Origin: a virus
Reading direction: 5' to 3' (one strand)
IMG/VR virus record: IMGVR_UViG_3300045999_009841
Coordinates: 1 to 23,189 of that record
Length of the DNA stretch: 23,189 nucleotides
The translations under genes and the position numbers were made by a program. Each line of letters opens with the position of its first letter. Within the stretch, counting starts at the first letter, position 1. The notes under the pieces are model-generated. The model was not told where the DNA came from. It made no database searches and saw only the letters and a list, made by a program, of their open reading frames with translations. This document shows, piece by piece, positions 3,117-23,189 of the stretch.

Positions 3117-3724
3117 GGGGGCTCTAGGTGGACGGTGATAGAGTGCACGGTGGCCTTCGAGCCCGACGAGTTGCTTGTGCTGTAGAAGCCCACCCACACG
3201 TGGGCCTCGACCTGATCGCCAGACTCGTCGCGCGAGGCAGAGATGCGTCGCAGCGGCGCGGCTAGATCAGCCAGGCTGACAGTCGCGTCGATCTCCACAG
3301 GTGTCGTCGAGGTCGTGCTATCCGTCGCGCGCAAGAGCGCCGCGAAGGGGTGCGACGACGACGCAGCGACAGCGAGCACCACGCCGACAGAGTACGTCGC
3401 CGAGGCCTGTAGGTGCGCGCGGACCGTGAGCTTGGGCCACAGCCCCGTCTCGCCATAGGGCTGCACGAGGTGACCGCCGCAGTAGTACGCGAGCACCCCC
3501 GGCGAGTCGTCCCACCGGATATCCTCGTCGGTGAAGCGATCGAGCCACACCTCGCCGCCGCCCGACTCCCACAGCCCGCGCACGGCATTGACGCGAGCGA
3601 GATGCGTGGCATTGCTCGCCGCGATCTGCACGATTCCGTCGAGCGGGAGGTAGTCCGCGGCCAGGTCGGCGCTGCCATTGTCTGGCGTGGGCATTTTGAC
3701 CACGCGTCCGATCGTCGTCGTCAC
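3113..3724 (-). CDS. Minor tail protein, unknown, 203 aa
   Basis: I do not recognise the family of this 203-residue protein. GTG 3724 is preferred over GTG 3733 because it overlaps the previous stop as GTGA and yields VTTTIGRVVKMPTPDN, parallel to the hub protein's VTIGRITT start. The sequence is beta-rich: DYLPLDGIVQIAASNATHL, GEVWLDRFTDEDIRWDD, LTVRAHLQASATYSVGVVL and a final VHSITVHLEPP. It is probably part of the tail tip or a baseplate-like adaptor. No transmembrane or catalytic motif is visible. Confidence 0.6.
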   Translation of the reverse strand: MTTTIGRVVKMPTPDNGSADLAADYLPLDGIVQIAASNATHLARVNAVRGLWESGGGEVWLDRFTDEDIRWDDSPGVLAYYCGGHLVQPYGETGLWPKLTVRAHLQASATYSVGVVLAVAASSSHPFAALLRATDSTTSTTPVEIDATVSLADLAAPLRRISASRDESGDQVEAHVWVGFYSTSNSSGSKATVHSITVHLEPP

Positions 3725-6339
3725 GGTGCCCACCTATCGACGCTGCCGTCTGTGAGGTCCGGGGTAGTGTCCGCGAGGAAGGCGTACGGATACTGCGCGG
3801 CCACCGCGTCGCCGTGGTCGGTGTAGCGCAGCATGACCTTGTACGCCGAGGCAGCCAGGGCGAGCATCGAGGCGCTCGGAGCGCTCGAAAGCGTCACCGT
3901 CGTCGCGGTCACCGACACCACCGTGCGCTGCTCGCGGGCGATCGTCGGCGCGTAGACACCGATCTCGCACAGTTCGACCACGTCACCCGCGACGAAGCCA
4001 TCCGTCGCCGCGCGCCCATCGTCGGCGAAGCCCGTGGTGCCGAAGCCGCTTGACGTGTCTACCGTCACGACTGCGCCCGAGATGCCGCCCGCGGCCACGA
4101 GCGCCGAGGGCGCGTAGCCTTGGAAAGCCTCGCTCGACAGGCGCATCTCGACCGCTGCACGAAGGCGACCGCCGAAGTACTGACGCCTCACCGCCACGAT
4201 CTGCGCCACGACGTCGGTGATGCCCCGGCCGCCCTCGAAGTCCGGCACGCGCGAGTGCGTCACCGTCACGAGGTCCCCTGGCTGCAGCGCGAGGTGCTCG
4301 CCTGTCAGCGGGAGCGTCAGGTGTCGCGCGGGCTCCGCGAGCGGGCCTAGGAGCTGCTGCGCGGACTCGACGAGCCCCGTGCGGATAGCCGATAGGCCCT
4401 GATAGACAGGAAGGTGCGTGAGCGCCCCGCACTCGATCGTCTCGCCTGCGCCGAGCTCGCTCATCCACGTGGCATCGACGACTTGGAAGGTGCTGCCGTC
4501 TGGCAGGGTGTATCGCACCGCCGTCGCCGCAGGCACGGGCTGATCGATCATCTCCCACTCTGCGTCGACGCAGTCTGTCTCGTCGAGGTCCGCCGCCACG
4601 ATCTCCGTCGCCGCGAAGTGCCCGTACCTCACCCCGGTCATGCGCCCGTGGCGCAGGGACAGCACCATGCCGCGCAAGCGTAGCTCGTCAGACAGGAGCG
4701 ACAGGAGCGACTCGTCACCGGGCCCGATACGATACTCCCGCTGCGAGGGGATCGACGACAGGGGAGACTGCCGCGCCTGCGAGACGAGGTGCTCCCAGTC
4801 GATCGTCTCGACCTGCACGTCCAGCCCGTCGAGTCCGGCGACGGCCAGGGCGAGCGCGCGCAGAGCGCCCCACGCCTCGGGGCCGCGTGCGATCACACCA
4901 ATCTGCGCGGTGGTCGGCTTGACGACGAGCGCGGACACCGACGCGTCGTACACCGTGCCGCTCGCGTCGCTGATGCCCGCGATCACGACCCGGACCTTGC
5001 TATCGGTGCCGTCGCGCTCTAGCAGCTCGAAGGCAACGCCCTCTGTCGTCGTCGTGTCGGCCACGAGCGACAGGCGCGCGGTGCCGTCGTATGGCGACGC
5101 GGAGACGTACGATAGCGTCGTGGGGATCTTCGCGAGGTCATCCGGCGATGGGATCGTGACCCATCCATCGAGCGGCACATACGCCTCAGGCGCCGGGCCC
5201 GAGGACGTCCACGTCTGCGGCGACGAGCCGGACAGGATCGTCGGCGACGTGCTCCACTCCGCCACGACCTCGAGCCGCCCGTTGGAGCTGCCCCAGTAGC
5301 CCGAGACGGTGACGCGCTGCGCCGTCGCAAGCTCGACACGCGGTCCCGTCGCTGCGAGCGTCTGTGCCCTGTCAGACCACGACTCCGCGAAGGCTGCCCA
5401 GGACGGGTGCCAGCCCGGCAGACCGCCGTCGACGGAGCCGTCGAGGAAGATCTCCGACGACGAAGACGGGCCCTGCGCGAGCGCGTAAAGCGGCGTGCGC
5501 AAGCCGCCCGAGAAGGGCCGAGTGTGGTGATTGATACCCCACAGCTCAATCTCGCGTCCCGAGATGCGCGCCGTCCCGGCGACCGTCATCGGGTCGAGCG
5601 GCACCGACCACCGCATCCCCGCTCGCGTGAGCTGCACGCCAGGGCCGACGACGCCGAAGAAGATCAGCGTCGGATTGCGCAGCACGAGGCCCGAGGCCGA
5701 CAGCTCACAGACCCACACCGTCGCTGCGCGTCCCTGCGGGTGTCGTGCTCCGCCGATCGTCACCACCGGCTGGCGCAGCGCGGGCGCAGCGTGCGAGCGA
5801 GCGACGGAGCCGTAGCGCCCGCGACCGCCCGTGGGCACGACGAGGCTGCTGCCCGAGATCGAGTCGTAGAGGAAGGTCTCGCGGCCGACGCAGGCGATGC
5901 CGCTGGACGCGAGCCCCGTCACCGACGACAGCGGCACAGACAGCGCCGTCGCCGAGATATCCGACGTGAGCAGCCGCTCGGGGTAGGAGTTGCGCGCCGA
6001 CAGCGTGGCCGATGCACGGTCGCCGTCGTCGTACAACTCCAGCCGCATCGCCTCGACGGAGACCTCGCCCTTGAGCGGGTCTAGCTGCTCGTACACCTCC
6101 CACACTGCGGCGGGGTCGAGGAGGTCGCGCACGGGGTTGAAGGTGCTCGCGTCGGGCAGCGTCTCTGTTAGCGTGCCTGTCCCTGGCCACCACAGCGGGT
6201 CCACGGTCGTGCCCGAGGTCACCGACACGCTGGTAGGCAGCACACCCGCGGGCGTATACACGCGAGGGATACCCGCGATCAGCATCACGGGTACCCACCG
6301 TGCGCCGTGGTCTAGCGTGGTGATGCGCCCGATGGTCAC
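3721..6339 (-). CDS. Large tail hub / central tail-tip protein
   Basis: This is the largest protein in the window, 872 residues starting at GTG 6339 (GTGA overlap, GGAGGG five nt upstream). The N-terminus VTIGRITTLDHGARWVPVM is echoed in the next gene's VTTTIGRVV. Residues about 120-190 form a module (TALSVPLSSVTGLASSGIA, then GRETFLYDS, then RGRYGSVARSH) often seen in phage tail-tip proteins. The middle has a beta-rich region with WGINHHTRPF, and the C-terminal third holds LTLPLTGEHLALQPGDLVTV and VSVTATTVTLSSAPSASM. Function as hub or receptor-side scaffold is inferred from size, position after the Dit-like gene, and module type. No peptidoglycan hydrolase motif is evident. Confidence 0.65.
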   Translation of the reverse strand: MTIGRITTLDHGARWVPVMLIAGIPRVYTPAGVLPTSVSVTSGTTVDPLWWPGTGTLTETLPDASTFNPVRDLLDPAAVWEVYEQLDPLKGEVSVEAMRLELYDDGDRASATLSARNSYPERLLTSDISATALSVPLSSVTGLASSGIACVGRETFLYDSISGSSLVVPTGGRGRYGSVARSHAAPALRQPVVTIGGARHPQGRAATVWVCELSASGLVLRNPTLIFFGVVGPGVQLTRAGMRWSVPLDPMTVAGTARISGREIELWGINHHTRPFSGGLRTPLYALAQGPSSSSEIFLDGSVDGGLPGWHPSWAAFAESWSDRAQTLAATGPRVELATAQRVTVSGYWGSSNGRLEVVAEWSTSPTILSGSSPQTWTSSGPAPEAYVPLDGWVTIPSPDDLAKIPTTLSYVSASPYDGTARLSLVADTTTTEGVAFELLERDGTDSKVRVVIAGISDASGTVYDASVSALVVKPTTAQIGVIARGPEAWGALRALALAVAGLDGLDVQVETIDWEHLVSQARQSPLSSIPSQREYRIGPGDESLLSLLSDELRLRGMVLSLRHGRMTGVRYGHFAATEIVAADLDETDCVDAEWEMIDQPVPAATAVRYTLPDGSTFQVVDATWMSELGAGETIECGALTHLPVYQGLSAIRTGLVESAQQLLGPLAEPARHLTLPLTGEHLALQPGDLVTVTHSRVPDFEGGRGITDVVAQIVAVRRQYFGGRLRAAVEMRLSSEAFQGYAPSALVAAGGISGAVVTVDTSSGFGTTGFADDGRAATDGFVAGDVVELCEIGVYAPTIAREQRTVVSVTATTVTLSSAPSASMLALAASAYKVMLRYTDHGDAVAAQYPYAFLADTTPDLTDGSVDRWAP

Positions 6340-7193
6340 GTCACCCCTCCGCTGCTGCCCGTGGTCGGGAGCACGAAGTCGAGGTCGCACTCCTCCCACG
6401 TCGGCCAGGTCGCGTCGTACCGCTCCGGGGAGAGCGACAGCGTGGCCTCAGGCCCGAGGTACCCGAGGTAGTACCGCTCCGTCGCCGAGCCGCCGCGTAG
6501 AGCCTGAAAGGTACTCTGCGCGAAGGCGACGACCCCGTTGCGGGCGACGTGCGCGAAGTCAGCCAGGGAGAAGTCTCGCCCGCTCGACACGTCGCCCACC
6601 GCCGACAGGGAGTCCACGGCAGGTCGCATCGGTGTGACCCACGTCCCGAGCGTCGCGCGTATCGTGGGGTCAGCCGGGATCCACCGCGCACGCATCGTGC
6701 GGCGCCAGCTCGTGCCCGTGGCGACGATCGCGTACACCTTGCCGCCCTCCGTCGTCTCGGCGCCGCCCGCCACGACCGGGCGCCACGTGCCGCCCGAGAG
6801 CGACGCGAAGACCGCGAGGTACGGCGACTGAGTGTCCGCGGTGTGCGTGGACACGGAGGCAGCGCCCTGCAGCCCGAGCACGACGCCCATGGTCGCCGAG
6901 GGGGTGTACTCGTACGTCCCGCTATCGATCGACAGCACCACGCGCGCGTCGGCGTCGAGCGAGAGGGAGATGGTGCGACCCGAGGCTGCGATGCTCGCAT
7001 TCCAAGCTGCCTCGACGTGCGACAGGAACTCAAGCGCCGGCGCCGCGAGCACGATCCTCGTGTCTGTCTTCGTGGCGACCGTCAGCGGGTAGTCTGTGCC
7101 GGCGCCGCCCGCAGGGATACGCAGCGTGCCGTCGAGGCCGGCGCCTGCGGAAGTCCAGTCGAAGGTCGCCGCCATCGCCGAGGTGATCTTCAC
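6336..7193 (-). CDS. Tail tip protein, distal-tail (Dit)-like candidate
   Basis: This 285-residue protein follows the tape measure, the position of the distal tail protein. GTG 7193 overlaps the tape-measure stop (GTGA) and has GAGAGG five nt upstream. Content is beta-rich with few charged helices: AGLDGTLRIPAGGAG, TISLSLDADARVVLSIDSG, GTSWRRTMRARWIP and a C-terminal EATLSLSPERYDATWPTWEE. No domain is recognised with certainty. It could also be a minor tail protein that caps the tube. It is followed, with 4-nt overlap, by the large hub-like gene. Confidence 0.55.
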   Translation of the reverse strand: MKITSAMAATFDWTSAGAGLDGTLRIPAGGAGTDYPLTVATKTDTRIVLAAPALEFLSHVEAAWNASIAASGRTISLSLDADARVVLSIDSGTYEYTPSATMGVVLGLQGAASVSTHTADTQSPYLAVFASLSGGTWRPVVAGGAETTEGGKVYAIVATGTSWRRTMRARWIPADPTIRATLGTWVTPMRPAVDSLSAVGDVSSGRDFSLADFAHVARNGVVAFAQSTFQALRGGSATERYYLGYLGPEATLSLSPERYDATWPTWEECDLDFVLPTTGSSGGVT

Positions 7194-9394
7194 GTCTGCC
7201 TCTCAAGCCGCATCGAGCCTGCCCTCTGATAGCGATTGACCCGCTGCCCTACCTGATCCTGCGTCGACGCGCGACCGTCGATCACCGGCCCGTAGTACTG
7301 TACGATCTCTGTACTACCACCCTCGGCGCCCGCACCGCCACGTGGCGACACCGGCGTAGGCTCGCGTGCTGCGCCACCACCGCCGCCGCCCGTCTCCGGC
7401 GTAGCCTCACCACCGCCGAGCGCGGCAACACCGGCGCCCGCAGCACCCGCAGCGGCGGCGGTTGCGGCGTGGAGGCCAGCGGCTTTGAAGTGCAGCGCCG
7501 CTGTGGGCGATCCGAGCGCGAGCGCACCGAAGCCTTCCGCGGTCTCAGACAGGGCCTTGACCGTCGAGGTGGTGGCCAGGGCAAAGAGCTGATCCTCGAC
7601 CGTCGCGCGGAGTGCCTCGCCCACACCTTCGCCGGTGCGCAGTGCGGCGACGACGGAGGTACTCACGGCCTGGCTGAGTGACTCGGCGGACTGCTTGAGA
7701 CTGTTGACCGGCCCGGCCTTGATCGCGTCGGCGAGCTGCTGCGCCTCGACGAGCTTCTGCCGATCGCTCTCGCGTCGTGCGACGTCTTGCTCTTTGGCCT
7801 TGTTTTGGCGCTCGCGCTCTTCCTCGATCAGGGCGTCGACGATGCGGTTTTGCTCTGCACGCCGGGCAGCCTCTGTCGTCGCCGCGGCTTCTCGGATGCG
7901 CCGCTCGCCGTCGATCGCAGCCTGCTCGCGGGTGCGCTCTGCCGTCGCAAGCTCCTGTGTGAGCTGTGCGGCACGCGACAACGCTGCGGCCTGGCGTGAT
8001 AGGGCCTGCGTGGCATTCTCTCCGCGCTGTCGTCCGCGCGCGGCGTCCTCCTCGGCCAGGGCGATCTGATCGCGCAGGTGCTCGATGCCTTCCTCGCGCA
8101 AGGCATTGTCCACCTCTAGCCGCTGCAACTCGCCGCGCGCCCCGAGCTGCACTCGTGCGCGGCTGAGGTTGTACTCGGCCTCGGCCATCGCACGGGTGGC
8201 ATCGTTGCGCTCTAGGAGCGTCGCAGTCGCCGCTGTTTGCGAGGCCGCATTGCGTTCGGCCTTGCGCTGCGCATCGCCCTCCATAATCGCGCGCGCCCGT
8301 GCGATCTCATCCTGCTCGCGCAGCGCTGCAGTGCGGTCACGAGACGCGGTGGTCGCCGCACCCGTCGCCGCGGCGACTTCGGCCTCGGATCTAGCCAGGG
8401 CGACGTTGGCGCGCTGCAGACGCGCAGCGGCCACGTGGGTAGCCTCGATCGCCTCGCGTCCACCGCGCATCTGTCGTGCTGCCGTCACCGCAGCTCTCGC
8501 AGCGGTCACCTCGGCTTGCGCTGCGTCCCTCGCCGTGGTCGCAAGGCGCTGCCGAGATTCAGCCGCGGCCACGAGCGCCGCGGTGTGGTCTGTCGTCGCC
8601 GTCGTGCCGAACTGCACGCTGAGGCCCCACCGCCTGAGCTGCTCCGTATTGCGCGACGTGATCGCGTTGAGCACGTCTTGGATCTGAACGTTGCTGTCGA
8701 TGCCGCCGTTCATCTGGCGGATCGCGGGGATCAGCGGGGCGATGGCGGCTTCGAGCTGGCGTACGCGCTCGGGCGATGTGCCCGCATTGATCATCGACAC
8801 CTCGGTCGCGCGCAGGGCACGAGCCGCAGTGAGGGTCGCGTTCAGTCGCTGCTGCGCGGTCGCCGTCGCGTCGATGCTGGACGCGATGCTGTCATACATC
8901 GGCCCGAGTCGGCCCTGGGCGTTGCGCAGCGTCTCGAGCACGCGGCCGTTTTCGATCTGCTCGCGCTCCGCTGCGGCGATCGCGCCGTACACCCCGAGGG
9001 CGCCCTGCGCCACCTGGCCGATCACGCCCAGGTTGCCTAGCAGCGCGATGCCTGCGTCCGCCGCGGACTTCTCCACGCCGGTCAAGCCGCGAGTCAACTC
9101 CGCGGTGTGCGACCGGAGGTTTTCGAGGAAGTTCTGTCCCGCCGCCATCGCGATGGAACGGCTCATCTGGCCCATCGTCTCGCGGAGACGCGACGTGCTA
9201 GCCGTCGCCTGCTGCGCCGAGTCCGAGATGCGCCGCATCCCTCCCGCGGCGCGCGTGCCAGCCTCGTCTCCGGTGCGGCCCGTGCGAGCGAGCTGGCCTT
9301 GCAAGTCGCCCATCGACGCGCCGAGCTGATCGAGCGCCGTCTCCGCGCCGGAAGTGTCTGCCGTGATCGGCAGGACGAGAGGATCCATCGTCAC
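7190..9394 (-). CDS. Tail tape measure protein
   Basis: This 734-residue protein sets tail length. After a short beta N-terminus (LVLPITADTSGAETALDQLG), it is almost wholly helical, with long alanine/arginine/glutamate coiled-coils such as AARDAAQAEVTAARAAVTAA and AEEDAARGRQRGENATQAL and many more between about residues 260 and 560. The end has a hydrophobic alanine/glycine run (AATAAAAGAAGAGVAAL), a glycine-rich linker and a closing VNRYQRAGS motif typical of phage tape measures. Using the usual about 1.5 angstrom per residue, the tail would be near 110 nm, a siphovirus-like length (rough estimate). GTG 9394 is taken as start because it overlaps the previous stop; ATG 9388 is close. Confidence 0.9.
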   Translation of the reverse strand: MTMDPLVLPITADTSGAETALDQLGASMGDLQGQLARTGRTGDEAGTRAAGGMRRISDSAQQATASTSRLRETMGQMSRSIAMAAGQNFLENLRSHTAELTRGLTGVEKSAADAGIALLGNLGVIGQVAQGALGVYGAIAAAEREQIENGRVLETLRNAQGRLGPMYDSIASSIDATATAQQRLNATLTAARALRATEVSMINAGTSPERVRQLEAAIAPLIPAIRQMNGGIDSNVQIQDVLNAITSRNTEQLRRWGLSVQFGTTATTDHTAALVAAAESRQRLATTARDAAQAEVTAARAAVTAARQMRGGREAIEATHVAAARLQRANVALARSEAEVAAATGAATTASRDRTAALREQDEIARARAIMEGDAQRKAERNAASQTAATATLLERNDATRAMAEAEYNLSRARVQLGARGELQRLEVDNALREEGIEHLRDQIALAEEDAARGRQRGENATQALSRQAAALSRAAQLTQELATAERTREQAAIDGERRIREAAATTEAARRAEQNRIVDALIEEERERQNKAKEQDVARRESDRQKLVEAQQLADAIKAGPVNSLKQSAESLSQAVSTSVVAALRTGEGVGEALRATVEDQLFALATTSTVKALSETAEGFGALALGSPTAALHFKAAGLHAATAAAAGAAGAGVAALGGGEATPETGGGGGGAAREPTPVSPRGGAGAEGGSTEIVQYYGPVIDGRASTQDQVGQRVNRYQRAGSMRLERQT

Positions 9395-9642
9395 GGTGCC
9401 ACCATCCTCTGCGTCGCCTCGTGCAGCGCTGCGGTGTACGCCGCCGCATCACACTCTGCGACCGCCGCGACAGCCGCGTGCGCGTAGCACCACGTCTCGT
9501 GATCGAGCACCCGGTGGCGAACCATCTGTGCGACGCGCGGAGCGATCGCACGCAGGTCGTCGGCGTCACCTTCCACGTCCACCACCACGACCAGGGTGAG
9601 TCTTTGTCCGCTCCCGCTCTGCCTGTCGTCGGTGGTGCTCAA
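9391..9642 (-). CDS. Small tail-region protein, unknown, 83 aa
   Basis: I do not recognise this 83-residue protein between the chaperone and the tape measure. It starts at TTG 9642, with GAGGG about 6-7 nt upstream, and overlaps the T frame by 77 nt, an unusually long overlap for this genome. Sequence: a short hydrophilic lead (MSTTDDRQSGSGQR), a strand LTLVVVVDVE, an acidic/helical segment (DADDLRAIAPRVAQMVRHRV) and an alanine-rich helical end with YAHAAVAAVAECDAAAY. Its stop overlaps the tape-measure GTG by four nt. A later GTG (9585) is a possible alternative start. It may be a tail assembly factor by position only. Confidence 0.55.
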   Translation of the reverse strand: MSTTDDRQSGSGQRLTLVVVVDVEGDADDLRAIAPRVAQMVRHRVLDHETWCYAHAAVAAVAECDAAAYTAALHEATQRMVAP

Positions 9643-10572
9643 TGTCGGCCCTCTGTGCTGCGATCTGTGACTGTCGGAGGGCCACGAGGGCCTGTGTATC
9701 CGCCGCCGTCAGCGGACGCCCGAGGGTGTCCGCGATCGGCACCTGCCACTCTACCGCAAGCGCGACAGCATCGCACACCTCATGCACCCACTCCCCCGAG
9801 CACTGCGCCCAGGGACACGTGAGCGCGAGGTCTGCGCCCGTCGCGTGCGACACGTGCTCGTGCGCCTGCGCAAGGTCCGGCGGTAGCTCCGCCGGTGGAC
9901 GGTGACCCGCACGCGGACAGCCCCATCGCGACGCGAACTCGTCGGCCGCGCCGATGAGGGCATCCCTTTCCGCCGCACCCTCGACGTCGCCGGGCGCGAC
10001 GAGACGCCGCCGGGCCTCGTCGGCCTTGCGACACCCGCACAGCGCCCGAGGCCCAGCTAGCGCGGCAGCATCAAGCCACGCGGCAAGCCGAAAGGGGCGA
10101 GCGCCCTCGGGCCCGCCTCCGCGCGGTCGAGCGCCACCTTAGCTACCTCACGGATCGCAGCCTCACCCGCGAGGGACGCGACGTGCTCGATCCACGCGTC
10201 GCGCGCCTGCGTGATCGTGCCGATCGTCTCGACGCCGCCGTACGCCGAGGCCTCGTGCCGCACGCCCTGCTCATCCGTGAGCGCGTGGCACGCGACCACG
10301 AAGGCCCGGTGATCGCGCGTCGCGCCCACGGCATCCATCGCGAAGCGGTACGCGCCGGGGGTGAGCGGCGACACCTCGAAGACCACGGGGCGCGCGTCGG
10401 GACGCAGCGGGAGTGCCGCGCGATCGGCGTCAGACCGCGTGCGCTCGTACCGCGACAGAGCCTCCGCGCAGCCAGGGGCGCCGAGGTCGATCGCAGGGTC
10501 GCACGTCGGCGTCACGCTGCCGGGCAGCGTACCGATCTGTACGACGCGCAGGAGGCGGGAGGGGCTCGTCAT
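9566..10572 (-). CDS. Tail assembly chaperone GT, -1 frameshift product (335 aa)
   Basis: Slipping at CCCTTTC (10090-10096) joins residues 1-161 of G to a 174-residue T part read in the -1 frame and ending at 9566. The T frame is open from inside G to its stop, and the only usable start in it is a GTG at 9853, which would discard about 79 codons that look coding. T contains RLAAWLDAAALAGPRALCG, WGCPRAGHRPPAELPPDL, HVSHATGADLALTCPWAQC and a closing basic helical tail. Six cysteines with nearby histidines could bind zinc, which I would not expect in a typical T domain. The overlap with the next gene is 77 nt. Coordinates span both parts: one base (10090) is read twice. Confidence 0.75.
10057..10572 (-). 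CDS. Tail assembly chaperone G (normal product)
   Basis: This 171-residue protein lies between tail tube and tape measure, where lambda-type phages encode gpG. It contains a beta-rich core (RPVVFEVSPLTPGAYRFAM, about 61-79) and helical segments (TQARDAWIEHVASLAGEAA). The last codons carry a canonical -1 slippery heptamer, CCCTTTC, ten codons before the stop, that would let a fraction of ribosomes continue into the T frame (separate entries). In lambda and relatives gpG coats the tape measure during tail assembly while the frameshifted gpGT recruits tube subunits. The protein itself shows little sequence resemblance to known chaperones, so the call rests on position plus the frameshift signal. 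Confidence 0.8.
   Translation of the reverse strand: MTSPSRLLRVVQIGTLPGSVTPTCDPAIDLGAPGCAEALSRYERTRSDADRAALPLRPDARPVVFEVSPLTPGAYRFAMDAVGATRDHRAFVVACHALTDEQGVRHEASAYGGVETIGTITQARDAWIEHVASLAGEAAIREVAKVALDRAEAGPRALAPFGLPRGLMLPR
10060..10096 (-). promoter_or_regulatory. Programmed -1 ribosomal frameshift signal
   Basis: In the zero frame the site reads GCC CCT TTC, i.e. the canonical X XXY YYZ heptamer C CCT TTC at 10096-10090. After an 8-nt spacer (GGCTTGCC) comes a 7-bp hairpin, GCGTGGC (10081-10075), loop TTGATGCT, GCCGCGC (10066-10060), with one G-U pair. Heptamer, spacer and stem are all of textbook form. The -1 frame entered here is exactly the one that is open downstream. Confidence 0.85.
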
Positions 10573-10575
10573 AGA

Positions 10576-11859
10576 TCACCCGAAGGCGAAGCGGAATTGG
10601 GACAGCAGCCGATCGAGCTCGTCGCCAGTCTCCGACGTGGGCGTGAAGGTCGCATCGTACGTCGCGTGCAGCTGCAGCTCCTGATAGAGCCGCGCGCCCA
10701 CGGTGACGGGCTTCGGCGGAGCGACGAGGCGCACCGCCGGGAAGTCCCACAGGTAGTGCGTCGCGTCCGACCCCGTACCGATCTTGTGGATCAGCAGGAG
10801 CTTGTACGCGGTGCGCGCCGCGAAGGCCGTCTGCCACGCCACGTCGTGCGGCACCTGCACGGTGATCACCGGCCCGCGCGGGCGCCCGGCGACGTCGACC
10901 ACCGCGGCCACGGTCTGCACACCGCCGCCGTCCGAAACCTTCTCCCACTCGGGCCCGTCGCCCTCAATGCCGATCGAGCCCTCGCACACGAGCCGCGTGC
11001 CGCGGGTGATCGAGGTCGCCAGGTACACCTCAGGGCGCCAAACGCCCGGCGAGCCCATCGTGTCGTCGACGCGAGCGATCGAGATGCTCTGCGACGAGGG
11101 CCCTGTCCACTGCACGGCCTGGCCTTCGAAGGCGCAGAGCGGCAGCTCGCCGTACTCGGGCAGCTGCCAGCTGAGCTTGCCGTGCACCCCGTTGGCCGTC
11201 CACTGCGCCACCGTCGACGGTGCCTGTCCGCGCTGCACGGTCATGCTGTGGCTGTGGATGCTGCTCGCCTTGCGCGTGTAGTTGTACATCTGGCGCACGA
11301 GCGCGCCGTTGGCCGGGTTGCCAGACAGCGCCGGGGCGACCGTGAGCGTGTCGGTGGCGATGGCCGTCACCATCGTCACCTCCCACTCGCCGGAGATGAC
11401 AACCTTGATCCACGTGCCGCGCGTGAAGTTCGCGCCCTGGCCTGCGCCGAGCGGGAGGCTCGTCGTGCTCGCACCCGTGTCGATAGCGCCGCCCTCGTCG
11501 GCGTACTCCGTCCCGAAGTGGTGTACGAAGAGGATGCGCTGCGGGAGCTCGGCCGGGCTGTCGCCCGCGTCAAGCTGCGCGCTCGCGGGGATGCCCTTCA
11601 GGTTGAAGGTCATCTTGACGGGCGTTTCGAGCTCCAGCCCGAGCACCGGGTCGATAGCCTCGTCGCGCCGCACGCGTTCATCGAGCACATCGAGCACGGC
11701 CTGCGTCGGCTCTACCGCGATCTCGTCGTGCACGACGTGGATGCGGGTCATCTTCTCCGGGAAGGAGGCGAGCGGCGGCGCGGGGGGCGTCGTGCCAAGC
11801 GTCGCCTCCTTGCCGATGAGGGTTGTGCTCGTGCGCGTCAGTAGGTTTTCGTAGGCCAT
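10576..11859 (-). CDS. Major tail tube protein
   Basis: This 427-residue protein precedes the chaperone and tape measure genes and so is the likely tail tube subunit. N-terminal LLTRTSTTLIGKEATLGTTP resembles the opening of many siphovirus tube proteins. Residues about 125-190 form a small inserted beta module (FTRGTWIKVVISGEWEVTMV, then TDTLTVAPALSGNPANGALV), a type often inserted in tube proteins. The C-terminal half holds VHGKLSWQLPEYGELPLCAF, RLVCEGSIGI and an end containing LHATYDATFTP. At more than 400 residues it is longer than contractile-tail tubes, which are under 200, matching the long-tailed siphovirus type. ATG 11859 has GGAG seven nt upstream. Confidence 0.75.
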   Translation of the reverse strand: MAYENLLTRTSTTLIGKEATLGTTPPAPPLASFPEKMTRIHVVHDEIAVEPTQAVLDVLDERVRRDEAIDPVLGLELETPVKMTFNLKGIPASAQLDAGDSPAELPQRILFVHHFGTEYADEGGAIDTGASTTSLPLGAGQGANFTRGTWIKVVISGEWEVTMVTAIATDTLTVAPALSGNPANGALVRQMYNYTRKASSIHSHSMTVQRGQAPSTVAQWTANGVHGKLSWQLPEYGELPLCAFEGQAVQWTGPSSQSISIARVDDTMGSPGVWRPEVYLATSITRGTRLVCEGSIGIEGDGPEWEKVSDGGGVQTVAAVVDVAGRPRGPVITVQVPHDVAWQTAFAARTAYKLLLIHKIGTGSDATHYLWDFPAVRLVAPPKPVTVGARLYQELQLHATYDATFTPTSETGDELDRLLSQFRFAFG

Positions 11860-11863
11860 CGTG

Positions 11864-12319
11864 TCACTCCGTTACGCGGATCCTCGCGCTGTCGAGCGCG
11901 CGTGCCAGCTGCTCTGTGTCTACACCCGGAATGAGCGGACGTCCACGTGTGCGCTTGCGCTCGATTGTCTCGGGCTTGTTGGTGACGAAGCGCCCGGACC
12001 GCAGCCGCTTAGCCAGGGCGCGACCGAGGGCCTCCCCGATGTACGGCGCGAGCCCCTTCATGGTCATGCGCCACGGGCGCCATGCCGCCAAGGCCGCGCG
12101 GCTCATCGCGTCGTCGAGGTCCGGACCGATCGCGAGCCACTGCGGCGAGTGCCGCGAGAGGTGGCTCACGACCTCGGCGTTGGTGACGCCATCGTTGCGC
12201 CCCGCGCTGGGGTCGACCGTCACTTGCACTGTCGTCTTGAGCAGCCCGAGGCGCCACTGCAGGTCTGCCACCACACCCTGTATCGCCGACCGTACGCCTC
12301 GTGCGTCAGCCTTGATCAC
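11864..12319 (-). CDS. Tail completion / HK97 gp10-like protein
   Basis: This 151-residue protein starts at GTG 12319, overlapping the previous stop as GTGA; no ATG is available near the junction. It is helical and basic (VVADLQWRLGLL, then RPWRMTMKGLAPYIGEALGR, then RLRSGRF), with a C-terminal GRPLIPGVDTEQLARALD stretch ending in a short strand IRVTE. That closing pattern (proline/leucine, then threonine-x-x-leucine, then arginine-valine) is the one seen in HK97 gp10 and Mu gpG-like morphogenesis proteins that finish the head-tail joint. An SAGRNDGVTNAEVVSHLS segment may be a loop insertion. The frame continues far upstream in a different gene, but that is an antisense-like shadow without a ribosome-binding site. 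Confidence 0.6.
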   Translation of the reverse strand: MIKADARGVRSAIQGVVADLQWRLGLLKTTVQVTVDPSAGRNDGVTNAEVVSHLSRHSPQWLAIGPDLDDAMSRAALAAWRPWRMTMKGLAPYIGEALGRALAKRLRSGRFVTNKPETIERKRTRGRPLIPGVDTEQLARALDSARIRVTE

Positions 12320-12885
12320 GGTGTCCACAGCGTCGCGGCCGTCATCGCGGCCTGCTCGACGAGGAAGTCCCCGCGCAGGTGCGCGTGCAGCGTGACAGTG
12401 TTCGGCGTGATCGGGTCGATGGTGACCGCGTCGTCGCTCGGGACGTAAGCCAGGGCGACACCGCCCCACGCGGCGTCCAACATAAAGACACGCTGGACCT
12501 CGAGCATGTCGTCGAGCGCCCGCTGTGAAGCCAGGGACAGTGCGCCGAGCGTCAGCGCGGAGTCGGTCGGATACAGCGCCGCGGGGAGCGCGATCTCGTA
12601 TTGCGCCCGCAGGTCGAAGCCGAGGCGCCGCACCCACGGTCCACCCGCCGAGCCCTCGACGGCATTGCCATCCCACCGGGCGCGCGACCACACCAGCTCC
12701 CACCGACGCGACACCGCGGCGCGCGCCGTGCCCGCAGGCCAGCGCTCGTTCTGCTTCGGCATCGTCACATCGACGGCCGCGAAGAGCCCCGCAGGGATGT
12801 ACGGCGACGCAGGCGCAGCGGGATAGGTACCGCCGAGGATGGAGGCGACACGGGTGCGGATAGCGTCTGCGGGACCGGCCATCAC
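12316..12885 (-). CDS. Neck / tail-terminator candidate (Mu gp37 position)
   Basis: I assign this 189-residue protein mainly by position: directly after the gp36-like connector and before the HK97 gp10-like protein, where tail terminator or tail-completion proteins sit. It starts MMAGPADAIRTRVASIL, a typical amphipathic N-terminal helix of such proteins, followed by a mixed strand region containing AAVDVTMPKQNERW, SRRWELVWSR and GFDLRAQYEIALP. Two consecutive ATG codons could serve as start; the first (12885) overlaps the previous stop by four nt. No enzymatic motif is visible. Alternative: a minor head-completion protein. Confidence 0.55.
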   Translation of the reverse strand: MMAGPADAIRTRVASILGGTYPAAPASPYIPAGLFAAVDVTMPKQNERWPAGTARAAVSRRWELVWSRARWDGNAVEGSAGGPWVRRLGFDLRAQYEIALPAALYPTDSALTLGALSLASQRALDDMLEVQRVFMLDAAWGGVALAYVPSDDAVTIDPITPNTVTLHAHLRGDFLVEQAAMTAATLWTP

Positions 12886-13280
12886 CAGCCTCGCTGATCG
12901 TCGCCGAGCGGCTCAGGCGCAGTGGATACGTCGTCGGTGGACACCGATCGCGTGCGCGACGCCCACGCCTCAAGCTCTTTGACGCAGCTCATGTACTCGA
13001 CGTGGTACGGGGGATTGCCCTGCGCGTCGCGGTACTGAGGGCGTCGTGATGCAGCGTAGTACGCGGCCACCATCGCGATGCGGCGCACCATCGCCGAGGT
13101 CGGCGTCGTGAGCGCACCGCCCGCGGCGACCGCGTACTCCTGCACGAAGTCCGAGGCTTGATCGAGCACGGCGCTCACCACGGCAGCGTCGGCGGTACCG
13201 CTGGCGTCGTCGTCGCACAGGTCCACGACCCGCGCGGCGCCGATCACCGTCTCCCACTGTGACTGTGTGATGAGCGCCAT
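12882..13280 (-). CDS. Head-tail connector, Mu gp36-like (DUF1320)
   Basis: This 132-residue protein matches the DUF1320/gp36 pattern: an N-terminal ITQSQWETVIG segment, an acidic VDLCDDDASGTADAAVV stretch (19-35), then ASDFVQEYA and a second helical half with VRRIAMVAAYYAASRR. Proteins of this family act as adaptor or neck subunits under the portal. It follows the capsid gene by four nt and overlaps the next gene by four. The C-terminal 25 residues are a low-complexity acidic tail (TDDVSTAPEPLGDD). The start ATG has only a weak ribosome-binding site, so it may depend on capsid translation. Confidence 0.78.
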   Translation of the reverse strand: MALITQSQWETVIGAARVVDLCDDDASGTADAAVVSAVLDQASDFVQEYAVAAGGALTTPTSAMVRRIAMVAAYYAASRRPQYRDAQGNPPYHVEYMSCVKELEAWASRTRSVSTDDVSTAPEPLGDDQRGW

Positions 13281-16741: not shown

Positions 16742-18546
16742 GGCTTTGACGCCTGCGCGCGCCCGACGAGCCGAGCGAGGATGAGCGCTCGCGCCACGTC
16801 GCGTACCACCTCGGGGTCGAGGGGCGCACCGCCGAGGTCGTCGAGTCGGCGCTGCAGATCGCCCGGTCCCTCAGCCCCCGCGACGGCCGCAGCAATCTCG
16901 GGCGCGCGGCCGCCGACGTGCTCCCGCAGGAGCGTCACGAGACGGTCCCGGATATCGTCCACGGTGGGGAGCTTCGGCGCAGCAGCCTTGCGCGGCTTGC
17001 TGTTGAGCCGCGGTACCATCGCCTCGGCCCACGATCGCCCTGGCTCGCCACCCCACAAGAGGAAGGCGACGTATCCCGGCGTCGGTGGCGACGCCCACCC
17101 CGCCGTCTTGTCTACCGCGTGTCTCGCGTGCCATGCGCGCATCTTGACCAGCTTGTCTCGCGTCGCAGGCTCTCCGCGTGCGAGGCGTCGCGCCCACGTG
17201 ATCGTCGCGGGCACGAGCCCGTCACCGCCGAGGCCTTCCTCGTACAGCTCGATGCCTCGGGCGCAGGCCTCGCGCACGCCCTTTGGCGGTGTGAGGTCCG
17301 GCTCCGCTGCGAGGCTCACAGCCAGGGGAGCGGGCTCGACGGTGCGCACCGGGATGCCGGCTTCAAGCGCAAGGGCTTCGGTATCGACGGGCACCCCGAG
17401 CTGGCGCCATGCGCCCGCGGCCTCGGCGCGTAGCTTCTGCGCCGCCGCCGCCGCCGCAGGGTCGGCCTGCTCGGAGTAGTCCACGTGCAGCGCACTGCCC
17501 TGCGTCCCGAGGTACCGGTCAAGCGGCGCAAGCACCTGCGCCTCGATCGCCGACTCCCACGCGCGCACGTCGGCGCGCACGATCGTGCGCAGCACCCCGA
17601 CGCCGGTTTGCGAGCTGGCGTTGGTGCCCACCTGGTTGTTCTGCGACGTGAGGTCTTGGCCGAGGATGGCGAGGCGAATCTTGCCGCCGCCCGCCGTGGT
17701 CAGCCATTCGAAGATCGCGTAGGCGTCGGTCTGTGCCTCTAGCAACTCGACGTCGTACGACGACGCAGCGTCGATGCCCTGCGGGATCGGGATGACCCCG
17801 CCCCGGCCGAGGGTGCGTAGCTTCGAGATGAAGCTCTTGCCGTCCGGCGTCTCGCGTGCGCCCGCGGGGAGCTTCGCCTTCCACAGACCCTGGCCCGTGG
17901 TTTCGCTGCGGCGCCGCGCGTCGTTGGCGGCGAAGCTGTTGGACAGGTACCACTCGGCGACGGAGTTGACCGCGCCCCATGTCCACGGCGCGCGCGCCGA
18001 GCGAGGAGTGTAGAGCAGCCACTGCCCGTCACCTGGCGTCACCGCGATTCGCCCGGCGCTGCGCGTCGTGACGTACCACGTGTCTGTCAGCTGCTCGTGC
18101 TCCACAGCCGAGGGGTGCACGCTCACGATCTGCGGCAGGAGCCTCGACGGATCGGCGGGGTCGGCGCGCCACACGAGCTGTGCAAGGCTCCAGCCCATTA
18201 GCACCGCGTCGCACCAGAGGTCGGTGGACACCTGCGGCGGACAGATCGTGTCCCAGTCGACAGCCAGGGGCTTGTCGTCAGGGCCGACGACTTCGGTCGG
18301 GTAGCTGCCCATCAAGAGCAGCCGCTGCAGCAAGGCGCCCATCACATCGGCGTCGCGACGGATGAGATCGCACAGCAGGCCCGAGCGTAGGAAAAGCCCG
18401 CGACTGTGCTCGTCGAGCATCGACCGCAGCGCCGAGACTGTGAGGTCTGTCAGCGGCTCCTGATCGACGGGCGTCACCGCAGGCGCCCCGGTGGTAGGCA
18501 CGGGTGCCCCGATGATGCGGTCGATCAGGTCGCGTAGGATGCTCAC
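16738..18546 (-). CDS. Portal protein, DUF935 (Mu gp29)-like, with extra C-terminal domain
   Basis: This 602-residue protein is the dodecameric portal through which DNA enters and leaves the head. Residues about 30-400 look like the DUF935 portal family: an N-terminal RRDADVMGALLQRLLLM segment, a central LVWRADP strand, WLTTAGGGKIRLAILGQDLT (281-300) and a helical section ending PLDRYLG. It sits directly after TerL and before the MuF-like gene, as in Mu-like phages. Unusually, residues about 418-514 add a discrete module: PPKGVREACARGIEL, then WARRLARGEPATR, then AWHARHAVDK, ending VAFLLWGGEPGRSWAE. I have seen this WGG-type module in other phage head and bacterial proteins, but I know of no established function. 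After it comes a basic, proline-containing linker and a helical tail. Confidence 0.85.
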   Translation of the reverse strand: MSILRDLIDRIIGAPVPTTGAPAVTPVDQEPLTDLTVSALRSMLDEHSRGLFLRSGLLCDLIRRDADVMGALLQRLLLMGSYPTEVVGPDDKPLAVDWDTICPPQVSTDLWCDAVLMGWSLAQLVWRADPADPSRLLPQIVSVHPSAVEHEQLTDTWYVTTRSAGRIAVTPGDGQWLLYTPRSARAPWTWGAVNSVAEWYLSNSFAANDARRRSETTGQGLWKAKLPAGARETPDGKSFISKLRTLGRGGVIPIPQGIDAASSYDVELLEAQTDAYAIFEWLTTAGGGKIRLAILGQDLTSQNNQVGTNASSQTGVGVLRTIVRADVRAWESAIEAQVLAPLDRYLGTQGSALHVDYSEQADPAAAAAAQKLRAEAAGAWRQLGVPVDTEALALEAGIPVRTVEPAPLAVSLAAEPDLTPPKGVREACARGIELYEEGLGGDGLVPATITWARRLARGEPATRDKLVKMRAWHARHAVDKTAGWASPPTPGYVAFLLWGGEPGRSWAEAMVPRLNSKPRKAAAPKLPTVDDIRDRLVTLLREHVGGRAPEIAAAVAGAEGPGDLQRRLDDLGGAPLDPEVVRDVARALILARLVGRAQASKP

Positions 18547-19886: not shown

Positions 19887-20329
19887 GACTCCTCGGGCAG
19901 GTACACCCGCACGCCGGTGCCCTCGACCCGCTGGCGCTCGACGAGCTCACCCGCGGCGCGCGCCTCTTCGACGCGGGCCTTGGCGCGCATCAGCCGGCGC
20001 TCCTCTTTGCGCAACCGCTCGCCGTCAAGCCAGCGCACGTAATCGAGCGCGAGCCGCGCATCCTCCTCGGTTCCCTTGAGCACGCGAGCGCGCAGCACCT
20101 GCTCCAGCTGCGCCGACGCACGGTCGCACTCGACGGCGAAGTCGGCGAAGGGCTTGTCAGCCTCGGAGACGTGCCCGCTCGCAATAGCTTCTCGCCCGCG
20201 GCGCAGCCACTTGGCGACTGTGATCCACGGCACTCCCGCGGCGGCGGCGCACGAGCGCAGAGGCGAGCCCACGCGACGAGCGCCGATGATGACAGGCCCG
20301 GCCGTGGCGATAATCGTAGGGCGCGGCAT
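19883..20329 (-). CDS. terS: Terminase small subunit
   Basis: This 148-residue protein is the probable DNA-recognition subunit of the packaging motor. An N-terminal helix-turn-helix lies at about residues 21-50 (GSPLRSCAAAAGVPWITVAK then WLRRGREAI), followed by a helical, charged region (DFAVECDRASAQLEQ, then RLRKEERRLMRAKARVEEAR) suited to oligomerisation. Its length and its place immediately before the ATPase subunit are typical of phage TerS. The ATG at 20329 overlaps the previous stop by one base (TAATG), and its own stop overlaps the TerL start by 4 nt. The nested inverted repeats just upstream could be a regulatory or packaging element. Sequence identity of TerS is always low, so the call leans on HTH plus context. 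Confidence 0.82.
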   Translation of the reverse strand: MPRPTIIATAGPVIIGARRVGSPLRSCAAAAGVPWITVAKWLRRGREAIASGHVSEADKPFADFAVECDRASAQLEQVLRARVLKGTEEDARLALDYVRWLDGERLRKEERRLMRAKARVEEARAAGELVERQRVEGTGVRVYLPEES

Positions 20330-21111
20330 TATCGGAGCCCTGGGGTTGGAGTCGAACCACCCACTTCGACGGGGGTACCATCGCGCGTGCCGGTTCCAGG
20401 GCAGGAAGCTTGACCCTTGTACATCCGCGCGCCGAGGCGATCAATTTCTGTGAAGGGGAGCACAGGGACCGTCAGGCGGGCGCGGGCGGTCGGGTCGACA
20501 AAGTAAAGGTAGCGGAGCTGAAAGCCCGGGAGGGTCACGCCGCCCGTCGCCTTTGCGTAGGCGGCGAGGTTGTACTTGCCTCCGGTGATGTCGTAATACG
20601 ACCTCCCACCAAGCTCCCCACGCGGACCAGTCGGGTTGCTTTCGAGCGTCATCTTGTGAATGACAACGCCGTCAGCGCGGCGAACAAGGTTCGTGCTTAC
20701 TGTAATGCCAGTGAGCGCAAACCCCGACGCGCGATAGATGGTACCGTCCCCGCACTGCGTGCCGTCTGCGAACGACACCACCCATTGAATGTGGGGCGCG
20801 TGCTTCCGCATGAGTCGCATTGCGACGGCGATGCACCGAGACTCAGAGTTGCGCGGCAGCTTATCGCTGAACGCCATGCGGTTTAGCTCAATGAAGCCAT
20901 TCCAGGGCGTGCCGGTCACAAGCCCTTGCAGCTTACTCTTGTCAAGGGACGGCCCGAACTGCATCGCCCCCAGAAGCTCCCCGTCAACGAACGCGCCGAG
21001 GTGCAGTTGTGAGTTCATCACAACCTTTCCGCTGTAGTGCCACCGCTTGACCGCGGCGTCTGCCGCCTTGCGGTCGATGGGCTCGACGCGGATGCGCTTC
21101 GCGTCACCCAA
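20329..21111 (-). CDS. Mom-like DNA modification protein (GNAT-fold family)
   Basis: This 260-residue protein resembles phage Mu Mom and its relatives, which modify adenine bases in phage DNA to resist host restriction. Visible family features are KRWHYSGKV (about 22-30), NSQLHLGAF (33-41), [10 protein letters not shown] (48-57), ELNRMAFSD (75-83), [15 protein letters not shown] (89-103) and [19 protein letters not shown] (113-131). No usable ATG exists at the N-terminus: I choose TTG at 21111, which has GGAG seven nt upstream and overlaps the ParB gene stop by 8 nt. Base composition is visibly less GC-rich than its neighbours (a 60-base line at 20641 is 55% GC against 75% at 16441), suggesting separate acquisition. 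No Com-like regulator is visible. The family call rests on recognised motifs, and the exact chemistry is inferred. Confidence 0.8.
20337..20402 (-). other. Nested inverted repeats with tRNA T-loop-like motif at the mom/terS junction
   Basis: Seven-base arms GCCCTGG (20337-20343) and CCAGGGC (20396-20402) enclose a second perfect inverted repeat, GTCGAA (20351-20356) and TTCGAC (20365-20370), with an 8-nt loop. On the minus strand the inner part reads GGTTCGACTCC, like a tRNA T-arm next to an acceptor-like stem. It is too short for a tRNA and has no recognisable D arm or anticodon arm. It sits inside the 3' end of the Mom-like gene, just before the small terminase start. Confidence 0.5.
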
Positions 21112-21844
21112 GGAACGACTCCGCGATGCGGTGCAGGGCGTTGCCGTTGCTGTTCTCGTTGGGCGAGCCGTCGAAGTCGCCCGCGTCCTTCGCCGCGTCA
21201 AGGGCCCGGCGTACCGCGTCGACCTGCGAATCGTGCAAGGTGAAGGTCATCTGTTGAAACGGGGGCTTGTCGCCGTCAGGCAGAGCCCCGAAGGCTTCGG
21301 CGGGGTCGCGGGTCGATGCAGTCAGCACCGCGTCGCCCGCGGCCTTGACCAACGCGTCGAGCTCCTCGCTCCCATAGCCCATGTCGGCCATGATCGCGGC
21401 GTCGCGCTCGAAGTCGCGCGTGGCCATTGCCACCACCGCAGCGGCGTCGTCCTGCCCCTGCAAGGCCCGCGCGTTGTCGGCGAGGGTCATTGCATCGGCC
21501 TCAGCGTCGGAGACGTCCACGAGGCGCACAGGCACCATGCCGGGCTCGGGCGCGTCGCGGTCGAAGCGGTGGTCAGCGCCGCCGCGCATGATGCCGTCGA
21601 CCTCAAGGCCGGCGACGATGAGCTTGGCGGCTTCCAAGCGCCCGTGCCCGCCGATGATGCGCCGCGTGCTGGCCTGGGCGAGGATCGGCGCGCCCCACGT
21701 CGTGCGCAGAATCGTGCGAGCAAGGCGCACGACCTCGTCGCCGTGGGCGCGGGGGTTGCGCGGGTTCGGCCGCAGGTCCGCGAGCGGTAGGTATACCGCG
21801 GCGACGCCAGAGCTAGGACCGCGGGCGGAGGTGTCTTTACGCAT
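21104..21844 (-). CDS. ParB/sulfiredoxin-fold (ParB N-terminal domain) protein
   Basis: This is a 246-residue protein with an N-terminal ParB-like domain: [15 protein letters not shown] (about 18-32) leads into the diagnostic GGHGRLEAA box (65-73), and the domain continues to LADNARA. Such ParB-fold domains bind CTP in partition proteins, but many phage relatives act as nucleases or as partners of DNA-modification enzymes. The C-terminal part carries a separate conserved-looking motif, [19 protein letters not shown] then [14 protein letters not shown], which I associate with phage ParB-like proteins. ATG at 21844 is chosen over the upstream in-frame TTG/GTG-type starts because GAGGGG precedes it at reasonable spacing and it overlaps the upstream gene by 8 nt. 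It runs directly into the Mom-like gene, suggesting a shared DNA-modification or genome-maintenance role rather than true partition. Confidence 0.85.
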
Positions 21845-22046
21845 GCCGCCACCACCCCTCTTCGCGGTGTCGTCGCGCCACGGCGTGCCTGCGGGGCGGC
21901 CACACTGCATCGACGTCCTCTCGGGTGGTCAGCACGAGGATACGCCCCGAGCGCCACACGCGTGCGGGCTGCCCTGCTGCGATCGTCGCGAGTGCCTCCG
22001 CGCGCTCGGCGGCGTCGAGGTCCAGGGGTCCGTCGTCACGAGCCAT
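21837..22046 (-). CDS. Small hypothetical protein, 69 aa
   Basis: I do not recognise this protein. It is 69 residues, beginning MARDDGPLDL and ending WWRHA, hydrophilic and charged, with no membrane segment; a central VWRSGRILVLTTRED stretch looks like a beta-strand-rich core. A GTG six codons upstream (22064) is an alternative start; ATG at 22046 is preferred because the upstream GTG has no visible Shine-Dalgarno, though the ATG has only a distant GGGG. Its last 8 nt overlap the start of the ParB-domain gene, so the two are probably translationally coupled. The C-terminal [18 protein letters not shown] stretch is basic, compatible with nucleic-acid binding, but this is speculation. Confidence 0.6.
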   Translation of the reverse strand: MARDDGPLDLDAAERAEALATIAAGQPARVWRSGRILVLTTREDVDAVWPPRRHAVARRHREEGWWRHA

Positions 22047-22295: not shown

Positions 22296-23189
22296 TCACG
22301 GCGTTTCGTCGCGGTGCCAGACCCTAGTGCTCCGCCCTGCCAGCCGTAGCACCCTCTGCTCCCACCCGAGGCGTCGCATGATCTGCGCCACGCGGGCGGA
22401 CTCTCGGGTGCCGATGCGCTCGATCTCCACCCCGCAGGCGCCGGTGAGCAGGCGCTGCGTCGTGATGGCACGTGCCTCGTGCGGGCTCAGGGCGGCCAGC
22501 CAGGAGGCGACGGCGTCCTCCCACGGGTCTGCCACCCTGTGCGTCTCCGTCGCCTCCTCTCGGGCCCTCTCCGCGTCAGCGCCGAGCCACCACCCGTACC
22601 CTCGCCGATACTGCTCGACGGCCTCGGCCCAGAGCTGATCGCGGTCGCGCCGGAGGGCGTCGGTGTCCACGCGCGTGGCCGAGACGACCCAGAAGCGCCG
22701 GTCGCCGGTGGCGTCGGTCAAGAATTGGGTCTGGTTGGTGCTGCCCACGATCACGTTGTGCCGCGGGATTGCCTCGACGGTGCGGGCGTAAGGTGCGCGG
22801 TAGGTGTCGACCTGGGAGGAGACGAAGGCCTTGATGCGTCCGGCGTGCGACCGGGAGGTCACGTGGTCGAGCTCGCCCAACTCATAGATCCACGCGCTGT
22901 TGATCTGAAGCATCGCGTCTTTGCTCTCAATATCGACGGCGCTGTCGCTGAACCACTCGCCGCCGAGGATGCGAAAGAAACTGCTCTTGCCAATGCCTTG
23001 CGGCCCGACGAGCACAAGCGAGGTGTCCACCTTGCAGCCGGGCTTGAGCGCACGCGCGACCGCGCTGACAAACCACGACCACAGCATCGTGCGGTTGATC
23101 CTGGTGTCCTCTGCGCCGAGCACGTCCAGGGCGACCGTCTCGATGCGCTCTGTGCCGTCCCAGCGGAGGCTGTGCAGGTAGTCTCGCCT
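22296..23189 (-). CDS. VapE/D5-like replicative primase-helicase, 3' part (5' end outside window)
   Basis: This is the ATPase/helicase half of a phage replication protein of the virulence-associated-E (VapE)/D5 type, expected to unwind DNA at the phage origin. The frame stays open to the window edge, so the true start lies beyond base 23189; 297 codons plus the stop are visible. At the very edge stands the family signature SLRWDGTERI, followed by LGAEDT. Then come a Walker A loop GPQGIGKS (visible residues about 62-69), an acidic Walker B-like stretch IYELGELD (about 101-108), a sensor-1 type GSTN (about 149-152) and the family's GDRRFW motif with candidate arginine fingers (about 162-167). 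The C-terminal 90 residues look like a winged-helix-type tail. The primase part, if present, is not visible. It lies next to a repeat cluster that could be its origin. The family call is firm; the exact subfamily is not. Confidence 0.9.
   Translation of the reverse strand, partial: RRDYLHSLRWDGTERIETVALDVLGAEDTRINRTMLWSWFVSAVARALKPGCKVDTSLVLVGPQGIGKSSFFRILGGEWFSDSAVDIESKDAMLQINSAWIYELGELDHVTSRSHAGRIKAFVSSQVDTYRAPYARTVEAIPRHNVIVGSTNQTQFLTDATGDRRFWVVSATRVDTDALRRDRDQLWAEAVEQYRRGYGWWLGADAERAREEATETHRVADPWEDAVASWLAALSPHEARAITTQRLLTGACGVEIERIGTRESARVAQIMRRLGWEQRVLRLAGRSTRVWHRDETP

Follow-up and report, generated by a model that had tools for sequence, protein, structure and literature searches.

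Phage lambda reportedly makes its tail assembly chaperone in two forms, G and GT, through a ribosomal frameshift described by Xu, Hendrix and Duda in 2004. The −1 shift occurs at a heptamer of the form X_XXY_YYZ (GGGAAAG in lambda) near the end of a short open reading frame (ORF) located between the tail tube and tape measure genes, and gives rise to a short and an extended chaperone. A modest proportion of GT is enough for a phage tail. In lambda, G outnumbers GT by about 30 to 1 (PMC5009743). Pseudomonas transposable siphophages of the D3112 group (MP29 and PaMx73) have a Mu-type head and a G/GT pair directly before the tape measure gene, and a −1 shift has been proposed for PaMx73 at T_TTT_TTC (PMC4378225), a site that sits 43 codons before the stop. 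In E. coli, the tetramers most prone to shift under a strong stimulator are, in descending order, A_AA.G, U_UU.C and U_UU.U. In the A site, UUN and AAN codons outperform CCN and GGN on average. A motif whose X and Z belong to one class, purine or pyrimidine, generally does better than a mixed one, and all-pyrimidine motifs rank among the better ones (all PMC4066793).

Here we analysed a window of 23,189 bases, the whole of IMG/VR record IMGVR_UViG_3300045999_009841, which is a single metagenomic contig with a GC content of approximately 70%. The window resembles lambda in that a short ORF (G) carries an X_XXY_YYZ heptamer close to its end and is followed by an open −1 frame (T), both lying between probable tail tube and tape measure genes, a layout that would give a short and an extended chaperone. 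It resembles the D3112 group in its Mu-type head and in the position of the putative G/GT pair directly before the probable tape measure gene. Unlike in lambda, the heptamer is CCCTTTC, and G and T have no detectable sequence similarity to the lambda system; nor was any similarity detected between the tail proteins of the window and those of MP29. Judging from its sequence features, we regard this locus as very probably a site of programmed −1 frameshifting within a gene for a phage tail-assembly chaperone (probability roughly 0.87).

Gene order around the putative chaperone gene

The minus strand of the window encodes Mu-type head proteins: small and large terminase subunits, portal, head morphogenesis protein, protease, a decoration/scaffold-like protein, major capsid protein and head–tail adaptor. 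Along this strand the order is head, connector, tube-like ORF, G, T, an 83-aa ORF and the probable tape measure gene. The tube-like ORF (10576..11859, minus strand; 427 aa) lies directly upstream of G and is a probable tail tube or major tail protein, with a weak match to the minor tail protein family phrog_290 (E = 0.022). The probable tape measure protein (7190..9394, minus strand; 734 aa) is assigned by position and length and is without a family match. No significant family match was found for the 83-aa ORF (9391..9642, minus strand), which starts at a TTG after AGAGGG and overlaps the final 26 codons of T. This order, with a weakly matching 427-aa ORF before G/T and a 734-aa ORF without a family after it, fits a tail-assembly chaperone. 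We infer the identity of G and T as tail chaperones from position and layout, not from sequence similarity.

Elsewhere on the minus strand, beside the terminase genes, is a gene for a Mom-family protein (20329-21201; PF25680, E = 6e-51), which resembles the DNA-modification gene of phage Mu. A ParB-like protein (phrog_723, E = 1e-20) is encoded at 21104-21910, and a protein with a VapE-like domain (PF05272, E = 3e-75) at 22296-23189, where it is cut by the end of the contig; both are also on the minus strand.

Slippery heptamer, hairpin and the −1 frame

G is a zero-frame ORF of 171 aa with an ATG start (10057..10572, minus strand), the product expected of ordinary translation. Its 3′ end reads ...GCC CCT TTC GGC TTG CCG CGT GGC TTG ATG CTG CCG CGC TAG on the minus strand. 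The heptamer C_CCT_TTC (10090..10096, minus strand) is in the frame of G, and therefore in the phase required for a two-tRNA −1 slip, in which the P-site codon CCT would become CCC and the A-site codon TTC would become TTT. Ten sense codons separate TTC from the stop codon TAG (10059-10057); in both frame and distance from the stop, the heptamer is as the original prediction had described it. Since the −1 frame has an upstream stop at 10141-10139 (minus strand), a shift is possible within only 26 codons of G, and the heptamer falls among them. A −1 frameshift candidate needs two overlapping ORFs, the second at −1, and an in-phase heptamer within their overlap; all of this is present here.

Such a site is rare in this genome. 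In the minus-strand genes used from the window, an in-phase X_XXY_YYZ heptamer occurs at only 9 of 5,869 codon positions. In eight of these Y is G or C, which leaves CCCTTTC in G as the sole case with A or T. From codon frequencies, 1.8 in-phase heptamers with Y = A/T are expected in the 5,869 positions and 0.008 in the 26-codon overlap; for in-phase heptamers of any kind, the expectation in the overlap is 0.10. CCCTTTC had been called less usual than lambda's GGGAAAG, and it is indeed uncommon. A literature search turned up no paper in which CCCTTTC is named as a site of frameshifting in phages. Of the same C_CC.U_UU.N class, the A, G and U versions appear in a list of 18 selected motifs from which C_CC.U_UU.C is absent (PMC4066793). 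Although uncommon, C_CCU_UUC fits the E. coli rules for shift-prone motifs.

Downstream of the heptamer, an 8-nt spacer (GGCTTGCC; 10082..10089, minus strand) leads to a stem-loop that is a candidate stimulator (10060..10081, minus strand). The strands GCGTGGC (10081-10075) and GCCGCGC (10066-10060) pair over 7 bp, one of them G-U, around an 8-nt loop, TTGATGCT, with a calculated energy of −13 kcal/mol. The published description of a downstream structure places it 4–10 nt from the site, with a G-C first pair and at least 7.6 kcal/mol (PMC4066793); here the distance is 8 nt, the first pair is G-C and the energy is −13 kcal/mol. The spacer and hairpin had been predicted as found, together with a claim that all three elements of the site agree. 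All are present, but the hairpin weighs less than was supposed: 43% of random in-gene sites of the window satisfy the published 7.6 kcal/mol rule and 18% have one at least as stable as −13 kcal/mol. A hairpin of exactly 22 nt placed precisely at offset 8 occurs at 0.13% of random sites, a criterion picked post hoc. By itself the hairpin adds little, being of ordinary strength for a genome of 70% GC. A GAGGG string 7 nt upstream of the heptamer (10104..10108, minus strand) is, speculatively, a Shine-Dalgarno-like stimulator; such strings are common at 70% GC.

The −1 frame beyond the heptamer reads PFRLAAWLDAAALAG... and stays open to a stop ending at 9566 (T, 9566..10096, minus strand). Its length is 176 codons counted from CCC, 174 after the PF junction, which is the figure originally given, and 162 beyond the G stop. 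As also predicted, T lacks an early start: the first ATG, GTG or TTG in its frame is the GTG at 9853, 81 codons past the heptamer. At the in-gene rate of start codons, 81 codons without any of the three have a chance of 0.7%. The length of the open frame taken alone is not significant. The weight of the case lies in the heptamer, its phase and place, and these 81 codons.

We propose the following scheme. Most ribosomes would read G through to the TAG, and a minority, with tRNAs on CCT and TTC, would slip by −1 onto CCC and TTT, aided by the hairpin 8 nt downstream. Shifted ribosomes would enter T and produce a GT fusion protein, about 335 aa long, in which G and T are joined at ...ALAPF|RLAAW.... 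By analogy with lambda, the tape measure protein may be coated by G, and GT may recruit tail tube subunits through its T part. The occurrence of the shift, its efficiency and the chaperone function are all three matters that we infer.

Coding signal and alternative readings

Codon usage was scored after training on the other genes of the window. Before the heptamer, the frame of G scores 0.26 and the other frames −0.50 and −0.52. The best minus-strand frame is that of G to about 10100, T after 10054, the 83-aa frame from about 9642 and the tape measure frame from about 9394. The signal of T is weak, above all in its first 67 codons (10054-9854), which score −0.08 per codon in a window whose ordinary genes score 0.23–0.47; the case for T is weakest here.

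The alternative that survives best, although improbable, is that T is an independent gene initiated at GTG 9853 or at a rare start codon, for example CTG 10042, and that the heptamer is coincidental. In some phages the tail chaperones are separate genes, and the codon signal of T is clearest (0.087) downstream of GTG 9853. A convincing Shine-Dalgarno sequence is, however, absent before both 9853 and 10042, and starting at 9853 would leave some 200 bases of open T frame (10054-9854) idle in a gene-dense operon. The only heptamer with Y = A/T, in the right phase and within the 26-codon overlap, would then be an accident of about 0.8%.

Slightly less probable still is that T is untranslated, with G alone being made and the region past G being non-coding or coding on the other strand. 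At 70% GC, an open frame as long as T has a chance of 0.03–0.11, and one plus-strand frame scores slightly above T in 10054-9854 (0.06). Against this, the neighbouring genes are all on the minus strand and abut one another, T is the sole stop-free minus-strand frame between G and the 83-aa ORF, and from about 9885 to 9631 T leads all six frames in 40-codon windows. An assembly or sequencing indel splitting one continuous gene into G and T is equally unlikely: the record is one metagenomic contig and no second copy of the region was found, but the frame change coincides with a functional shift heptamer and not with a long homopolymer (no run there exceeds CCCC), each frame is clean on its own side, and related loci have the same layout.

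The programmed shift from G into T is retained as the preferred reading; the original proposal of a −1 frameshift joining G and GT is supported by the unique in-phase heptamer at the frame switch, the start-less T, the gene order and the related loci described below. Because the coding signal leaves T at about 9642 and enters the 83-aa frame, ribosomes could conceivably shift a second time, leaving T for that ORF, and yield a three-part G–T–X protein reaching nearly to the tape measure start. We consider this very doubtful; separate initiation at TTG 9642 is the simpler reading, given the Shine-Dalgarno-like AGAGGG before it.

Related loci and the divergent tail module

The layout recurs among relatives of the head module. 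We took 123 loci with a related Mu-type capsid and sufficient downstream sequence, and scored each for a short ORF that contains an in-phase Y = A/T heptamer, extends by 60 codons or more in the −1 frame and lies directly before a long ORF. This layout is found in 52 of the 123 loci, compared with 5 and 3 in out-of-phase controls. The 52 loci are not independent, many being near relatives with AAATTTG or AAATTTA, but the excess over the controls is large despite this. None of the 52 uses CCCTTTC, and their −1 extensions of approximately 61–113 codons are nearly all shorter than T. In Pseudomonas phage MP29, which has the Mu-type capsid in common, gpG/gpGT are annotated at the same place, directly before the tape measure. 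As a separate observation, in Myxococcus phage Mx4 (locus interval 16753-17302) the end of Mx4_p57 contains AAAAAAA in phase near position 17088, and a −1 extension lies immediately ahead of the tape measure gene; the Mx4 record has no frameshift product annotated at this site.

The tail module itself is highly divergent. Searches of viral contigs, phage records and fetched loci detected no homologue of G, T, the tube-like ORF, the tape measure protein or an 892-aa tail ORF, and none of T or the tube-like ORF was found among 379 genomes of one phylum. Weak matches from the tail-module searches were dismissed on inspection as chance and composition-driven. G and T had no match to any tail protein in Pfam, PHROGs, NCBIfam or PDB sequences, and structures predicted without an alignment were too poor to use (mean pLDDT 43 for G and 31 for the tube-like ORF).

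That a short and a long tail chaperone can be made by frameshifting is already known, and the view of the mechanism is unchanged by this locus. It would add a well-formed and divergent instance of the tail-chaperone frameshift, with an uncommon C_CCU_UUC site, from a GC-rich phage for whose tail proteins no relatives were recognised in the collections searched. It also suggests that, when similarity searches find nothing, the frameshift layout can still flag a gene for a tail chaperone.

Searches with the capsid, by contrast with those for the tail, returned relatives at 64–95% identity. The nearest with sequence past the capsid are 73–75% and 64% identical, and their tails differ from that of the window. 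As tests of conservation these relatives were unusable: one (L002) ends inside the capsid gene, and three (L011, L091 and L094) have a contractile tail with a tail sheath (phrog_907). None of the window proteins that were scanned matched a tail sheath. Compared with these three, which are among its nearest capsid relatives, the window appears to have undergone a tail swap in the region 3721-12973.
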